Origin: a virus
DNA: 31,440 bases
Strand: one strand, 5' to 3'
IMG/VR virus record: IMGVR_UViG_3300046007_012561
Span: 1 to 31,440 of that record
The stretch's first letter is position 1; each line of letters begins with the position of its first letter. Shown piece after piece: positions 16,326-21,966 of the stretch. The notes beneath the pieces are model-generated. The model was given only the letters and a program-made list of their open reading frames with translations, did not search any database and was not told the DNA's origin. The translations under genes and the position numbers were made by a program.

Positions 16326-16350
16326 AAATCTAAATTATAGAATTTATTGA

Positions 16351-16386
16351 CCCCCCTTTCTAAATATAAGAAAGGGGGGTTTTTTT
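16351..16386 (+). terminator. Rho-independent terminator, 11-bp stem
   Basis: CCCCCCTTTCT (16351-16361) pairs perfectly with AGAAAGGGGGG (16369-16379), loop AAATATA, T run 16380-16386. The next ATG is the base after the T run. Confidence 0.95.
16360..16366 (+). promoter_or_regulatory. possible late promoter CTAAATA inside the terminator loop
   Basis: CTAAATA (a form close to late boxes) spans the end of the 5' arm and the loop. It ends 20 bases before the ATG at 16387, the usual distance for late boxes here. A start there would lose the 5' arm. Confidence 0.35.
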
Positions 16387-17860: not shown

Positions 17861-19159
17861 ATGAAAAGATTTTCTCAATTTATATTAGAAGCAAAAGAAA
17901 CCAGGGCATCTGAGCAAGCTAAGAAACTTGGTTTGGTTGGTGATGGGCACGGGGATTGGTATAACTCCCAGGGAGAATTTATTGCTAAAACTGTAGATGG
18001 GCAATTAAAATTTTTTAATAAAGGACAAAGAGTTGGTCAGAGAGATATTCCACCAAAATCTGGACAAGGAAGAGGAGCATCTGCTACGGCACAACAGCAA
18101 GTATCTCCACAACAAACTCAAGGTCAGCAAATTTCTCCTCAAAGAATACCTATTGGTCAAGAAGATCAAATGCCTGCGGATGATGAGTTTTTGACAATTG
18201 TTCTTGCTAAATTTAATCCCCCATCAAAGGAGCATAAAAAATTATTTACTACTGCAAAAAGAGTTTCTTTGGGCGGAGAAGTAAGAGTTTATCCATCTAG
18301 AACTCAAGATAATAAATCTAATCCATTATCTGCAAATAGAAAAATTTATTATTTGAAAATGATGTTTCCTGAAATTAAAGATGATATTGTAAATAATCCA
18401 GAAATTAAAACAATATTTGATGTGCTAATTGCAGGAAATGAAGATGGATATTCGAATGTAAATATTGTTGTTGGGTCTGATCGCCAAGCCGAAATACAAA
18501 ATTTAGCAAATAAGTATAATGAAAAATTTTATCAGTACAATGAAATAAAAGTAATTCCTACTGGAAATTTTGATACAGAAAAGGATGTTTCGGGAATTTC
18601 TTCTGGTATGATGAGAAAAACTGCTGCAGATAATAATTTTAGAGAATTTAAAAGAGCCGTTACTAAAAATGTTGATGACCTTGATGCTAGAAAATTGTTT
18701 AACGAGCTCAGGAAAGCAATGGGATTTAAAGAAAATGTTAAGGAAAATTATAATCTTTGGGAAATTGCTCCAGAATTAGACTTTAAAAATTTAAGAGAAA
18801 ATTATATCCAAAATAAAATTTACAAAATTGGAGATATTGTGGAAAATGTGAATACTGGTCTGGTAGGTAAAGTTATACGTAGAGGAACAAATTATTTGAT
18901 TTGTGTTACTGAAGAAGATGTTATGTTTAAATCCTGGATAAAAGATATTGTTGAGTACAATGAAGTTAAAATGGATAGTTTAATGAGGGATAAAACTCAC
19001 CCAAATACTCTTGTTGGAACTTTAGGGTCATTTAAATATCACGCAAAAATGACTCCAGGTGCAATTGGAACTAATAAGAAAAATCTTCAGTATGGGGGTA
19101 AAGCATATGGAGTAAATTTTATAAATAAATATAAGGCAAAAAAAGCAAGTACTTTTTAA
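17861..19159 (+). CDS. capsid-targeted protein with nucleotidyltransferase-like domain
   Basis: 432 residues. N-terminus MKRFSQFILE-A is a T4-type capsid targeting sequence with an IxE-A gp21 cut site (FILE-A) after residue 10. A Gln/Pro-rich linker (about 65-100) follows. Residues about 108-285 look like a cytidylyltransferase/NMN-adenylyltransferase fold: KFNPPSKEH (117-125) at the HxGH position, VRVYPSRTQDNKSNPLS, a strand NVNIVVGSDRQAE, and ISSGMMRK (246-253) at the ISSTxxR position. In the HxGH-like motif only the last His (H125) is kept. From about residue 320 a KOW-like segment (KIGDIVENVNTGLVGKVIRR) begins the C-terminal domain. Related cyanophage proteins are annotated 'cytitidyltransferase'. 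Activity is unproven. Confidence 0.75.
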   Translation: MKRFSQFILEAKETRASEQAKKLGLVGDGHGDWYNSQGEFIAKTVDGQLKFFNKGQRVGQRDIPPKSGQGRGASATAQQQVSPQQTQGQQISPQRIPIGQEDQMPADDEFLTIVLAKFNPPSKEHKKLFTTAKRVSLGGEVRVYPSRTQDNKSNPLSANRKIYYLKMMFPEIKDDIVNNPEIKTIFDVLIAGNEDGYSNVNIVVGSDRQAEIQNLANKYNEKFYQYNEIKVIPTGNFDTEKDVSGISSGMMRKTAADNNFREFKRAVTKNVDDLDARKLFNELRKAMGFKENVKENYNLWEIAPELDFKNLRENYIQNKIYKIGDIVENVNTGLVGKVIRRGTNYLICVTEEDVMFKSWIKDIVEYNEVKMDSLMRDKTHPNTLVGTLGSFKYHAKMTPGAIGTNKKNLQYGGKAYGVNFINKYKAKKASTF

Positions 19160-19160
19160 G

Positions 19161-21737
19161 ATGACTAAAGCAAAACCCGATTATCTTGATTTTGATAGTG
19201 ATGGAAATACTAGAGAATCAATGAAAAAAGCTTTGAAAGATAAGAAAACAAAATCTGTTAAAGAAGGGTTGATTGGCGGTCAAACTAAAATTGATGTTGC
19301 CGCTCCTTATGGGAAATTGACTTCTGCAGATTTTAAACATCTTCGAAAATCAAAAAAGAAACTCACCAAAGAAGGATATTCAAATTGGAGAGAAGACCTG
19401 ATTGAAATTGAAGATAAAATTCCGGCAAAAAAGGAAAAAGAAGAAAAAATAACAGAAAAAGAAGTTAATAATAAAATTAAGATTAATCCAAAACTTGAAT
19501 TGGGGGAAGCACTAGAAAATCTTGGTGGAACTCTTATTGAAATGATTGAGATTGATGAAGTTGATTATATTGTTGAGAGTGTTTATAATGAACTTCTTGA
19601 TGAAGGGTATGACGATGACGAAATTGAAGAAGCACTTGAATATGCTTTAGTTGAGGCAAAAGTAACTTTTGGACACGATACTCCAACAGGACAAAAGAAA
19701 AAAGGTAATCTATTAAAAGCAGTTGGAAGACTTGCAAGACAAAAACTTTCCAGTAAAGTTCGTGGAGTTAAAAGATCAGTAGGTTCGGCAGCTGTCGGTG
19801 GATTAAGGAATGTTGCTAAAGGTGCTTTAGGTGTTGCTCGTAAAATTGAAGGCGATAAAAAACCAAGTACAGCACATACTAAAACAAGAACTGCATCAAC
19901 TTACCGTGGTGCTGGAGTTGGACAAAGAGAAAGAGTAAGTAGTGGATCTTATTCTGCCCCAAAACCAGAAGCACCAAAACCAGAAGCACCAAAACCACAA
20001 CAAAGAAAAGCATCAACTCCAGTTTCTGATCCTTGGGAGGGATCTTATACATCCCAATCACCAAAACCATCGCCAAAACCTCAAGCAAAAACTACAACAG
20101 TTGCACCAAAACCATCGCCAAAACCTCAAGCAAAAACTACAACAGTTGCACCAAAACCATTAACAAAAGAACAGCAACAAGCAGTAGTAAGAGCACAACG
20201 TAGAAATCCAAATCTTTCTAAAAGTGATGCAGAAAGAATTGCATCTACTACTCCATCTAAAGAAGAGAGACAAAGAGAAATGAGAGCAAGAATGGCTGCT
20301 GCAGCTTCTAAACGTGGTTTAGATGAATCTCATTATAGTTTAGATACAAGAAAAGTTGAACCAGGAGAACCTGGAGAAGCACAAGCAAATCAAGCATCTT
20401 GGGATGACTATTGGAGTTCTGCTGCAAAAGGATATAAAGAAGAATATCAATTAACTGAAAAAGCAGAAAGTGAGCAGCAGCAAAAGATTTTTGGTCTTGC
20501 TCTTTCAGTGAAAAGAGGTCAAACCCCAAGATCTGAAGTAAGTGATAGAGTTCTTAAAATTGTTGATGGAATGGGCGAAAAGGAAATTCGTAAGTTTGCT
20601 AAAACAAAGCACGAAGGACTTCCCCACAAAGTCGAAACAAAAGAAGAAGTAATAAGACAACAACTTATTGCTAGAATGATTAATAAAATTGAAGAACAAA
20701 GTGAGATTTGCGTAGATGAAGCAAAACTTCCAAGTTCAATGAAAAAAGGTAAAAAAAAAGTAGAAAGTAAAACCCAGGTCATTCACGATGTAGATGATAA
20801 TCTTGCAGATCAGAGACACCCTGATGCTGCTAAGATTGATGTGATGAGGAAGAAATCGGGTAAGTGGGAGAAGGTGCAATCATTAACACCTAGCCAGTTT
20901 GCCCATCATAAACTCAGAAAACCAGGAGAACCGGTAAAGGAAGAAAATGATCCTGGGGATAAGTATGGATTTGATCAATTTAGAAGTACTAAAAAGTTTA
21001 AAGAAACGACCAAACCAAACAAACCAGTAGTAAGGTTGGGAGACAGTCCAAGAAGACCTGCTCAAAAATCTGTTGTGACCGCTCGTGGTGGATCTGAATT
21101 TGGAAGTAAAAAACCAAGTACTCCTATGGATAAACCAGGAGAGTTTGCTAAAGATTTAAAATCCAGAATTGGGGTAAAAAATCTTGAGAGAAAGAATGTT
21201 CATTTTACTGGTGGAATGCGTACAGGTTCTGGTCCTGAGAAAAAGGCAGAAGTAGTTAAAAAGATTGTGAAACCTGATGCTAAAAAAGTAATTGCAACAG
21301 ACGATCATCTTCAAAATGTAAGGCATATGGCTGCTGCAGCATCTGAAACTGCACCTAAAGCAAAAGTTAGAGCATATCAATCAAAACCAGCGACAAAGGC
21401 AAAAGGTAAGGTTAAGACTGGAGATATTGTTCCAGTAAGAGTTGGTAAGGAAAAGGATTTAAGTGATACTAATATTGGTATAAGAAAGAATACCTCACCT
21501 TCATCATCTACTAAAGAAACTCAACGTAGAAGAAGAACTGCAAAACGTGGTATGAGAAGTGAAGCACTTGATGTAAATACTCAGCAACAAAATACTTCAA
21601 AGGATAATCAACCAACTTCAAACGAATTAAATCCTAAACAAAAGTCTGCTCTTTCTAAGTTAGTGCAGAGTAAAACGATGCAATTGATGGCAGCAAAAAG
21701 AGCAGTTTCTTCTGGAGTTTCTCCTGATATTAATTGA
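19161..21737 (+). CDS. large probable capsid-internal protein with HAD-like domain
   Basis: 858 residues. Order: DYLDFDSDGNTRESMKKAL near the start; an LLDEGYD module (about 148-165, followed by ALVEA, a possible LxE-A cut site); a basic Gly-rich part; a Pro/Lys/Gln-rich linker with two identical 15-residue repeats; then a HAD-phosphatase-like domain. HAD motifs: VIHDVDDN (D543, D545), VVTARGG (T640), GPEKKAEVVKK (K694/K695), IATDDHLQN (D714, D715). The domain has large insertions and motif I ends in N rather than T. The start is 2 bases after the previous stop, so both are one late transcript. Catalysis and cargo role are inference. Confidence 0.7.
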   Translation: MTKAKPDYLDFDSDGNTRESMKKALKDKKTKSVKEGLIGGQTKIDVAAPYGKLTSADFKHLRKSKKKLTKEGYSNWREDLIEIEDKIPAKKEKEEKITEKEVNNKIKINPKLELGEALENLGGTLIEMIEIDEVDYIVESVYNELLDEGYDDDEIEEALEYALVEAKVTFGHDTPTGQKKKGNLLKAVGRLARQKLSSKVRGVKRSVGSAAVGGLRNVAKGALGVARKIEGDKKPSTAHTKTRTASTYRGAGVGQRERVSSGSYSAPKPEAPKPEAPKPQQRKASTPVSDPWEGSYTSQSPKPSPKPQAKTTTVAPKPSPKPQAKTTTVAPKPLTKEQQQAVVRAQRRNPNLSKSDAERIASTTPSKEERQREMRARMAAAASKRGLDESHYSLDTRKVEPGEPGEAQANQASWDDYWSSAAKGYKEEYQLTEKAESEQQQKIFGLALSVKRGQTPRSEVSDRVLKIVDGMGEKEIRKFAKTKHEGLPHKVETKEEVIRQQLIARMINKIEEQSEICVDEAKLPSSMKKGKKKVESKTQVIHDVDDNLADQRHPDAAKIDVMRKKSGKWEKVQSLTPSQFAHHKLRKPGEPVKEENDPGDKYGFDQFRSTKKFKETTKPNKPVVRLGDSPRRPAQKSVVTARGGSEFGSKKPSTPMDKPGEFAKDLKSRIGVKNLERKNVHFTGGMRTGSGPEKKAEVVKKIVKPDAKKVIATDDHLQNVRHMAAAASETAPKAKVRAYQSKPATKAKGKVKTGDIVPVRVGKEKDLSDTNIGIRKNTSPSSSTKETQRRRRTAKRGMRSEALDVNTQQQNTSKDNQPTSNELNPKQKSALSKLVQSKTMQLMAAKRAVSSGVSPDIN
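20061..20150 (+). repeat. 45-bp perfect tandem repeat, two copies
   Basis: Copies at 20061-20105 and 20106-20150 are identical and followed by the first 10 bases of a third. They encode PKPSPKPQAKTTTVA twice in the linker of the 858-residue protein. Identity at every base points to recent slippage or duplication. Confidence 0.9.
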
Positions 21738-21795: not shown

Positions 21796-21966
21796 ATGGG
21801 AGTATTAGTCGAAGTTGTAAAACCACTTCTTTTCGCAGCGATGAATTCCTGTCATACCAAGCGTCTTGTAGTTGAACTACTTGAGCGTTATGTAAATACC
21901 ACTGATAATGATATTGATAATGTAATCGCAGGATCTGTAAGATCAGCTCTTCTTAAGGGTTGCTGA
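21796..21966 (+). CDS. 56-residue conserved small protein
   Basis: The ATG has a strong ribosome binding site CGGAGG (21785-21790) five bases upstream. The protein begins MGVLVEVVKPLLFAAMNSCH, continues with TKRLVVELLERYV, and ends SALLKGC. It looks like a compact helical protein and resembles a small ORF widespread in cyanomyoviruses; function unknown. It has its own late-like box and a terminator 27 bases after the stop, so it is probably expressed late and well. Confidence 0.75.
   Translation: MGVLVEVVKPLLFAAMNSCHTKRLVVELLERYVNTTDNDIDNVIAGSVRSALLKGC

Follow-up and report, generated by a model that had tools for sequence, protein, structure and literature searches.

A T4-like cyanophage protein that is most likely packed into the phage head appears to carry a divergent HAD phosphatase (residues 538–745) as a swappable C-terminal cargo, a reading to which we assign a probability of roughly 0.6. 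The domain (20772..21395, plus strand) was delimited by homology, motif conservation and dN/dS, and lies in a large, basic, modular protein, referred to here as the carrier.

Genomic context and modules of the carrier

The window, meaning the whole 31.4 kb stretch of DNA that was analysed, is a fragment of a T4-like cyanophage (Kyanoviridae), with its genes in the order typical of such phages: DNA polymerase, UvsX, gp41 helicase, MazG, gp61 primase and NrdA/B. The nearest isolate seen was the freshwater Synechococcus phage S-SRM01, also a member of the Kyanoviridae, with identities of 78% for the DNA polymerase, 85% for UvsX and 82% for NrdA.

The carrier ORF (19161..21737, plus strand) encodes 858 aa and is Lys/Pro-rich, basic (pI 9.8; Lys+Arg 20%; net charge about +57) and mostly unstructured. 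Residues 67–211 are homologous to gp280 of phage S-SCSM1 (39% identity over 155 aa), and within them an LLDEGY-type helical module was recognized from the sequence and from this homology (residues 131–165; 19551..19655, plus strand). The LLDEGY string itself is at residues 145–150. The sequence-only reading of a HAD domain embedded in a modular, basic protein of head type is supported. Further downstream is a DUF3008 domain (residues 435–491; 20463..20633, plus strand; Pfam PF11450, 7.5e-12), fused into the carrier in the window and in S-SRM01 and encoded in S-SCSM1 by a separate virion-annotated gene, gp279, beside the carrier counterpart. Counterparts of the carrier, most of them with common modules, occupy the same position in S-SRM01, P-SSM2, S-SCSM1, S-SM2, Bellamy and P-TIM68, and the HAD domain is absent from all six.

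Two genes precede the carrier on the plus strand. ORF16387 (16387..17802) encodes a phrog_1462 protein that is a weak homologue of the S-SCSM1 virion protein gp282, and is followed by the gene for a cytidyltransferase/NMNAT-like protein (17861..19159; phrog_395, 4.4e-85), homologues of which are virion-associated in several cyanophages. The latter is the nucleotidyltransferase-like gene that the sequence-only reading took to be co-transcribed with the carrier; a single nucleotide separates its end from the carrier start, and it is near-universal among cyanophages, with the HAD present or absent. A terminator-like hairpin (16349..16381, plus strand) lies upstream of this block and a second at 21944–21962, so that the two flank ORF16387, the cytidyltransferase gene and the carrier as though these formed a single operon. 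Elsewhere in the window, ORF15303 (15303–16325) and an ORF at 624–1349 also encode proteins with an LLDEGY/LLEEGY module; ORF15303 contains nine L/I-x-E motifs where 2.6 are expected, and may be a head protein that undergoes extensive processing.

Evidence for a HAD fold

The sequence-only reading had assigned HAD motifs to D543/D545, T640, K694/K695 and D714/D715, and all of these residues were found at those positions. Motif I, D543-V-D545 (20787..20795), with the predicted nucleophile and general acid/base, is invariant in all relatives, as are the motif III residue K695 (21243..21245) and the motif IV pair D714-D715 (21300..21305), the predicted Mg2+ ligands; motif II, T640-A641-R642 (21078..21086), was placed by alignment. 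Alignment also located an insert between motifs I and II, at about residues 550–635 (20808..21065; like the motifs, on the plus strand), which holds the conserved residues F580, L585, F604, F607 and T616 and, from its position, may act as a cap. An Asp at position +2 of motif I points to the phosphatase/phosphomutase class of HAD enzymes. As a pattern alone, the motifs are weak evidence, because a loose version that occurs in 0.02–0.09% of shuffled domains nevertheless also matches nrdA.

The distant relatives, reached both via conserved stretches of the domain and via the carrier, argue strongly for a HAD fold, because those in the same carrier slot (L109, L111, L115 and L121–L129) are textbook HADs that align with the window domain. 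Their motifs are of the canonical type (YDVDETLF, LVTAR or IITAR, GKKK and MYDD), and their identity to the window domain is about 30–39% over 150–210 residues; with L127, for example, BLASTP gave 35% over 178 aa (74 bits). An intermediate version, L108, is 44% identical. Relatives at 85–100% and at 60–75% identity retain all of the motif residues, and none of the 16 relatives aligned lacks D543 or D545. Of 176 ungapped columns in the 16-sequence alignment, 17 are invariant: D543, D545, F580, L585, F604, F607, T616, R632, T640, A641, R642, G671, G684, K695, K708, D714 and D715. The six catalytic positions (D543, D545, T640, K695, D714 and D715) are all among them, an outcome with P of about 3e-7 for six random columns if columns are independent and the sequences are treated as unrelated. 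We regard this conservation, read from aligned sequences, as the decisive check on the motifs, and conclude that the domain almost certainly has a HAD fold.

This assignment is supported by homology and motifs, and not by structure. Two AlphaFold2 runs gave models of low confidence (pLDDT 53 and 56), in which the alternation of strands and helices is consistent with a HAD Rossmannoid. In the second, made for the relative L028 (pLDDT 56, pTM 0.45), strands 8–11, 98–103 and 161–167 end at motifs I, II and IV, and a hairpin/helix insert lies between motifs I and II, as would be expected of a HAD core and cap. Foldseek searches with these low-confidence models returned only non-specific Rossmann-like folds. 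The L028 contig has frameshifts that disrupt its carrier and primase genes, probably assembly errors; its HAD part is intact.

A Rossmannoid of another kind, such as a phosphoribosyltransferase-like domain with its PRPP loop at VITTDDHLQN, would account for the weak similarity that a profile search gave to a ribose-phosphate pyrophosphokinase chain (E 0.6–1.1). The phosphoribosyltransferase profile PF00156 gave no match, and the invariance of motif I and of TAR, together with relatives that read DVDETL, fits a HAD; we consider such a fold highly improbable.

Family libraries mostly passed over the domain. HAD models in Pfam and NCBIfam did not match it, a PDB sequence search likewise returned no HAD, and individual tests with PF00702, PF08645 and PF18143 were negative; we count the lack of a curated-library HAD match as a point against a HAD phosphatase. 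The only library match was to PHROG 415, a broad phage HAD family labelled polynucleotide kinase; it was weak (8.8e-4) and spanned motifs II–IV, and it recurred in five to six relatives; L127 matched the family at 1.1e-4. Members of PHROG 415 in the same genomes differ from the window domain in being separate proteins of about 110–195 aa with no carrier, and a profile of the domain scored against the small HADs that these phages encode as separate proteins did not exceed column-shuffled controls.

The PHROG 415 label, and the adjoining of the two genes in the window, would suit a polynucleotide 3′-phosphatase that acts together with the nucleotidyltransferase-like protein in end processing, much as the sequence-only reading had envisaged. 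This idea is not supported: there is no kinase, PNK3P (PF08645) had no match in seven records, the cytidyltransferase gene occurs in isolated cyanophages that lack the HAD, and the cassette mostly lies after nrdB, distant from the cytidyltransferase gene. We therefore rate an end-processing pair as very unlikely.

Selection and probable catalytic competence

The HAD domain is under strong purifying selection. In comparisons with those relatives of the carrier that have diverged further (L004, L005, L024 and L026), dN was 0.03–0.10 against a dS of 0.46–0.88, whereas the linker that precedes the domain had dN/dS ratios of 0.4–0.9. Two more strongly diverged versions of the HAD occupy a similar slot in other loci (L118:3379–4023 and L108:3692–4330), which suggests repeated replacement or fast divergence.

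A catalytically dead HAD fold could be retained as a phosphate- or nucleotide-binding module, or as the compact core of a head protein. Two features are in keeping with this: the window domain is strongly basic (pI 10), and residue 547 of motif I, commonly T or V in HADs, is Asn in the window clade and either A or C in the versions L118 and L108. Dead HADs usually lack the nucleophile or the metal ligands, however, and here, among sequences about 30% identical, the six catalytic positions do not vary, when few other residues are so constant. Residue 640 is Ser in one close relative (L001/L020), and Ser is also usual at this position of motif II. A dead fold accordingly seems quite unlikely, and we think it quite likely that the domain is a competent enzyme. 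In such an enzyme D543 would attack the substrate phosphate with D545 as acid/base, T640 and K695 would hold the phosphate, D714 and D715 would bind Mg2+, and the 550–635 insert would serve as the cap that determines specificity. Our default guess for the substrate is a small metabolite, either a phosphorylated nucleotide or a phosphorylated sugar.

Distribution of the HAD cassette

About 110 environmental loci carry the HAD family. The window type occurs on two unrelated carriers, the first downstream of the cytidyltransferase gene (the window, L001–L009, L024, L026 and L028) and the second a different protein directly downstream of nrdB (L031–L040). At least 80 further loci have a HAD of the canonical type; of the 80 that were examined, 72 have nrdB upstream, and the carrier sequence around the HAD is highly variable. 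Twelve virus records, the longest of 247 kb, have exactly one HAD of the family each, and S-SRM01 and S-SCSM1 have none. On sequence grounds, the HAD is a swappable cassette. Many of the post-nrdB carriers (L132–L208) have a C-terminus that reads M[TS]SYEYWKQFI or similar, as if a targeting-type peptide sat at this end of the protein.

Beyond these loci, tblastn with several versions of the domain gave no credible match in 50,697 isolated-phage records, and the search of bacterial and archaeal genome contigs, as far as it reached, did not find the domain either. In S-SRM01, a weak match (E 0.007) fell on a baseplate-region protein and was set aside as chance.

A putative release site and probable head packaging

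In T4, the first ten residues direct internal proteins into the head, with residues 4 and 7 important for targeting and residues 8 and 10 for processing, and the prohead protease gp21 cleaves after L/I-x-E (PMC9026906). Upstream of the HAD domain, the window carrier has a predicted match to this cleavage motif, I-E-E, at residues 510–512 (20688..20696, plus strand). The site nearest the domain is V-D-E↓A at residues 518–520 (20712..20720, plus strand; the arrow marks the putative cut); it is off-consensus, with V at P3, and is equivalent to I-E-E↓A, I-D-E↓A or [LI]xE↓K in relatives. Among the relatives of the window this position reads IEE↓A, IDE↓A or VDE↓A. Canonical HADs are immediately preceded by L/I-x-E in 12 of 12 distinct hexamer contexts, many of the compared sequences being closely related; the variants are YIEE, YLLE, YLEE, NLEE, NLDE, YLQE, YLDE and LILE, and K-[AES]-R-G follows. 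The placement of the motif is consistent with a possible release of the HAD by the prohead protease, to which we give slightly less than an even chance. The companion idea that the domain itself avoids protease motifs was rejected, since seven divergent representatives had two such motifs against 3.5 expected.

Packaging is suggested by the company that the carrier keeps. The syntenic S-SCSM1 proteins gp089, gp282, NMNAT, gp280 (the carrier counterpart) and gp279 (DUF3008-like) are all annotated as virion proteins, and NMNAT was named among the proteins detected by mass spectrometry in CsCl-purified S-SCSM1 virions (PMC9602691). Virions of S-SZBM1 contain the cytidyltransferase homologue and the preceding ORF (PMC9146016), and those of S-CREM2 contain the cytidylyltransferase and both ORFs after it (PMC10665884). 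The window cytidyltransferase begins with MKRFSQFILE↓A (17861..17890, plus strand), a candidate capsid-targeting sequence found by pattern match that fits the T4 targeting and cleavage rule exactly. The same pattern fits 19 of 20 homologous loci and only seven of 139 background ORFs, of which the cytidyltransferase gene itself accounts for six. The window carrier (which starts MTKAKPDYLDF) has no clear T4-type N-terminal targeting sequence, and its clade lacks the NPLNDIS-type start found in relatives, from which we infer its head targeting. This start, N547 and the V in place of L/I at the nearest site are among the points that we count against our best explanation. By analogy with the virion-annotated S-SCSM1 counterpart and neighbours, and with the targeting start of the cytidyltransferase, the HAD-bearing carrier is likely to be packaged. 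The earlier suggestion of a head-associated protein has indirect support, from HAD-less counterparts that are virion-annotated in isolated phages.

The virion detections cover HAD-less carriers only, and the S-SCSM1 and S-CREM2 authors allow that such proteins possibly co-purified as contaminants (PMC9602691, PMC10665884). Both points would suit a HAD phosphatase that is active but performs its task inside the infected cell, late in infection or while heads are being assembled, and that the virion does not deliver. Its carrier would then resemble a core or scaffold protein and be degraded or lost, and the L/I-x-E motifs in the N-terminal part of the carrier could mean destruction. The virion annotation of the HAD-less S-SCSM1 counterpart and its neighbours argues against such a role, as does the T4-type targeting start of the partner cytidyltransferase, and we judge it unlikely. 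For a packaged HAD phosphatase, we propose that the carrier, the cytidyltransferase and further internal proteins would enter the prohead core together, that the prohead protease would cleave directly upstream of the HAD domain and free it, and that the enzyme would be injected into the host with the DNA and be active at the start of infection.

More broadly, environmental T4-like cyanophages may possess polyprotein-like head proteins with exchangeable enzyme cassettes, in which a packaged HAD is released at L/I-x-E and injected as an early effector. Cassette swaps between carriers, and divergent replacement at one slot, are as expected of an arms race with host factors. We hold this wider model tentatively, at somewhat below even odds. 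If it is true, the virus may inject a HAD enzyme into its cyanobacterial host alongside the DNA, and the work adds a family of head-carried phosphatases that is common in environmental cyanophages and that has neither been seen in isolated phages nor been picked up by the standard family libraries. It would also suggest that cyanophages use their large, disordered head-type proteins as delivery platforms whose cargo can be exchanged.

Comparison with known systems

The HAD superfamily is known, and so are enzymes that are ejected from the head. Head-carried phage enzymes include T4 Alt and the N4 RNA polymerase, although to our knowledge few classes have been described. A divergent HAD family, absent from Pfam and NCBIfam, that serves as a mobile cargo cassette of head-type proteins appears to be new in the material searched; in the part of the literature covered, only reviews and a bioreactor metagenome paper matched a search on cyanophage virion haloacid dehalogenases.

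With HAD phosphatases of the DxD class, the window domain shares a DxD motif I, T/S in motif II, the Lys of motif III and the DD of motif IV, in that order, as well as the insert at the cap position. It differs in having diverged so far that no Pfam or NCBIfam model recognizes it, in the Asn of its clade for T/V after DxDx, and in its fusion into a disordered virion-type protein. The S-SCSM1 set of gp089, gp282, gp280 and gp279 has the same gene order and homologous modules as the window, but is without the HAD. The T4 proteins IPI–III and Alt are basic, co-packaged with DNA, cleaved by gp21 after L/I-x-E and ejected; a HAD cargo is not described for them, and the window carrier differs from them in having no clear N-terminal targeting sequence, whereas the cytidyltransferase encoded beside it fits the T4 targeting rule.
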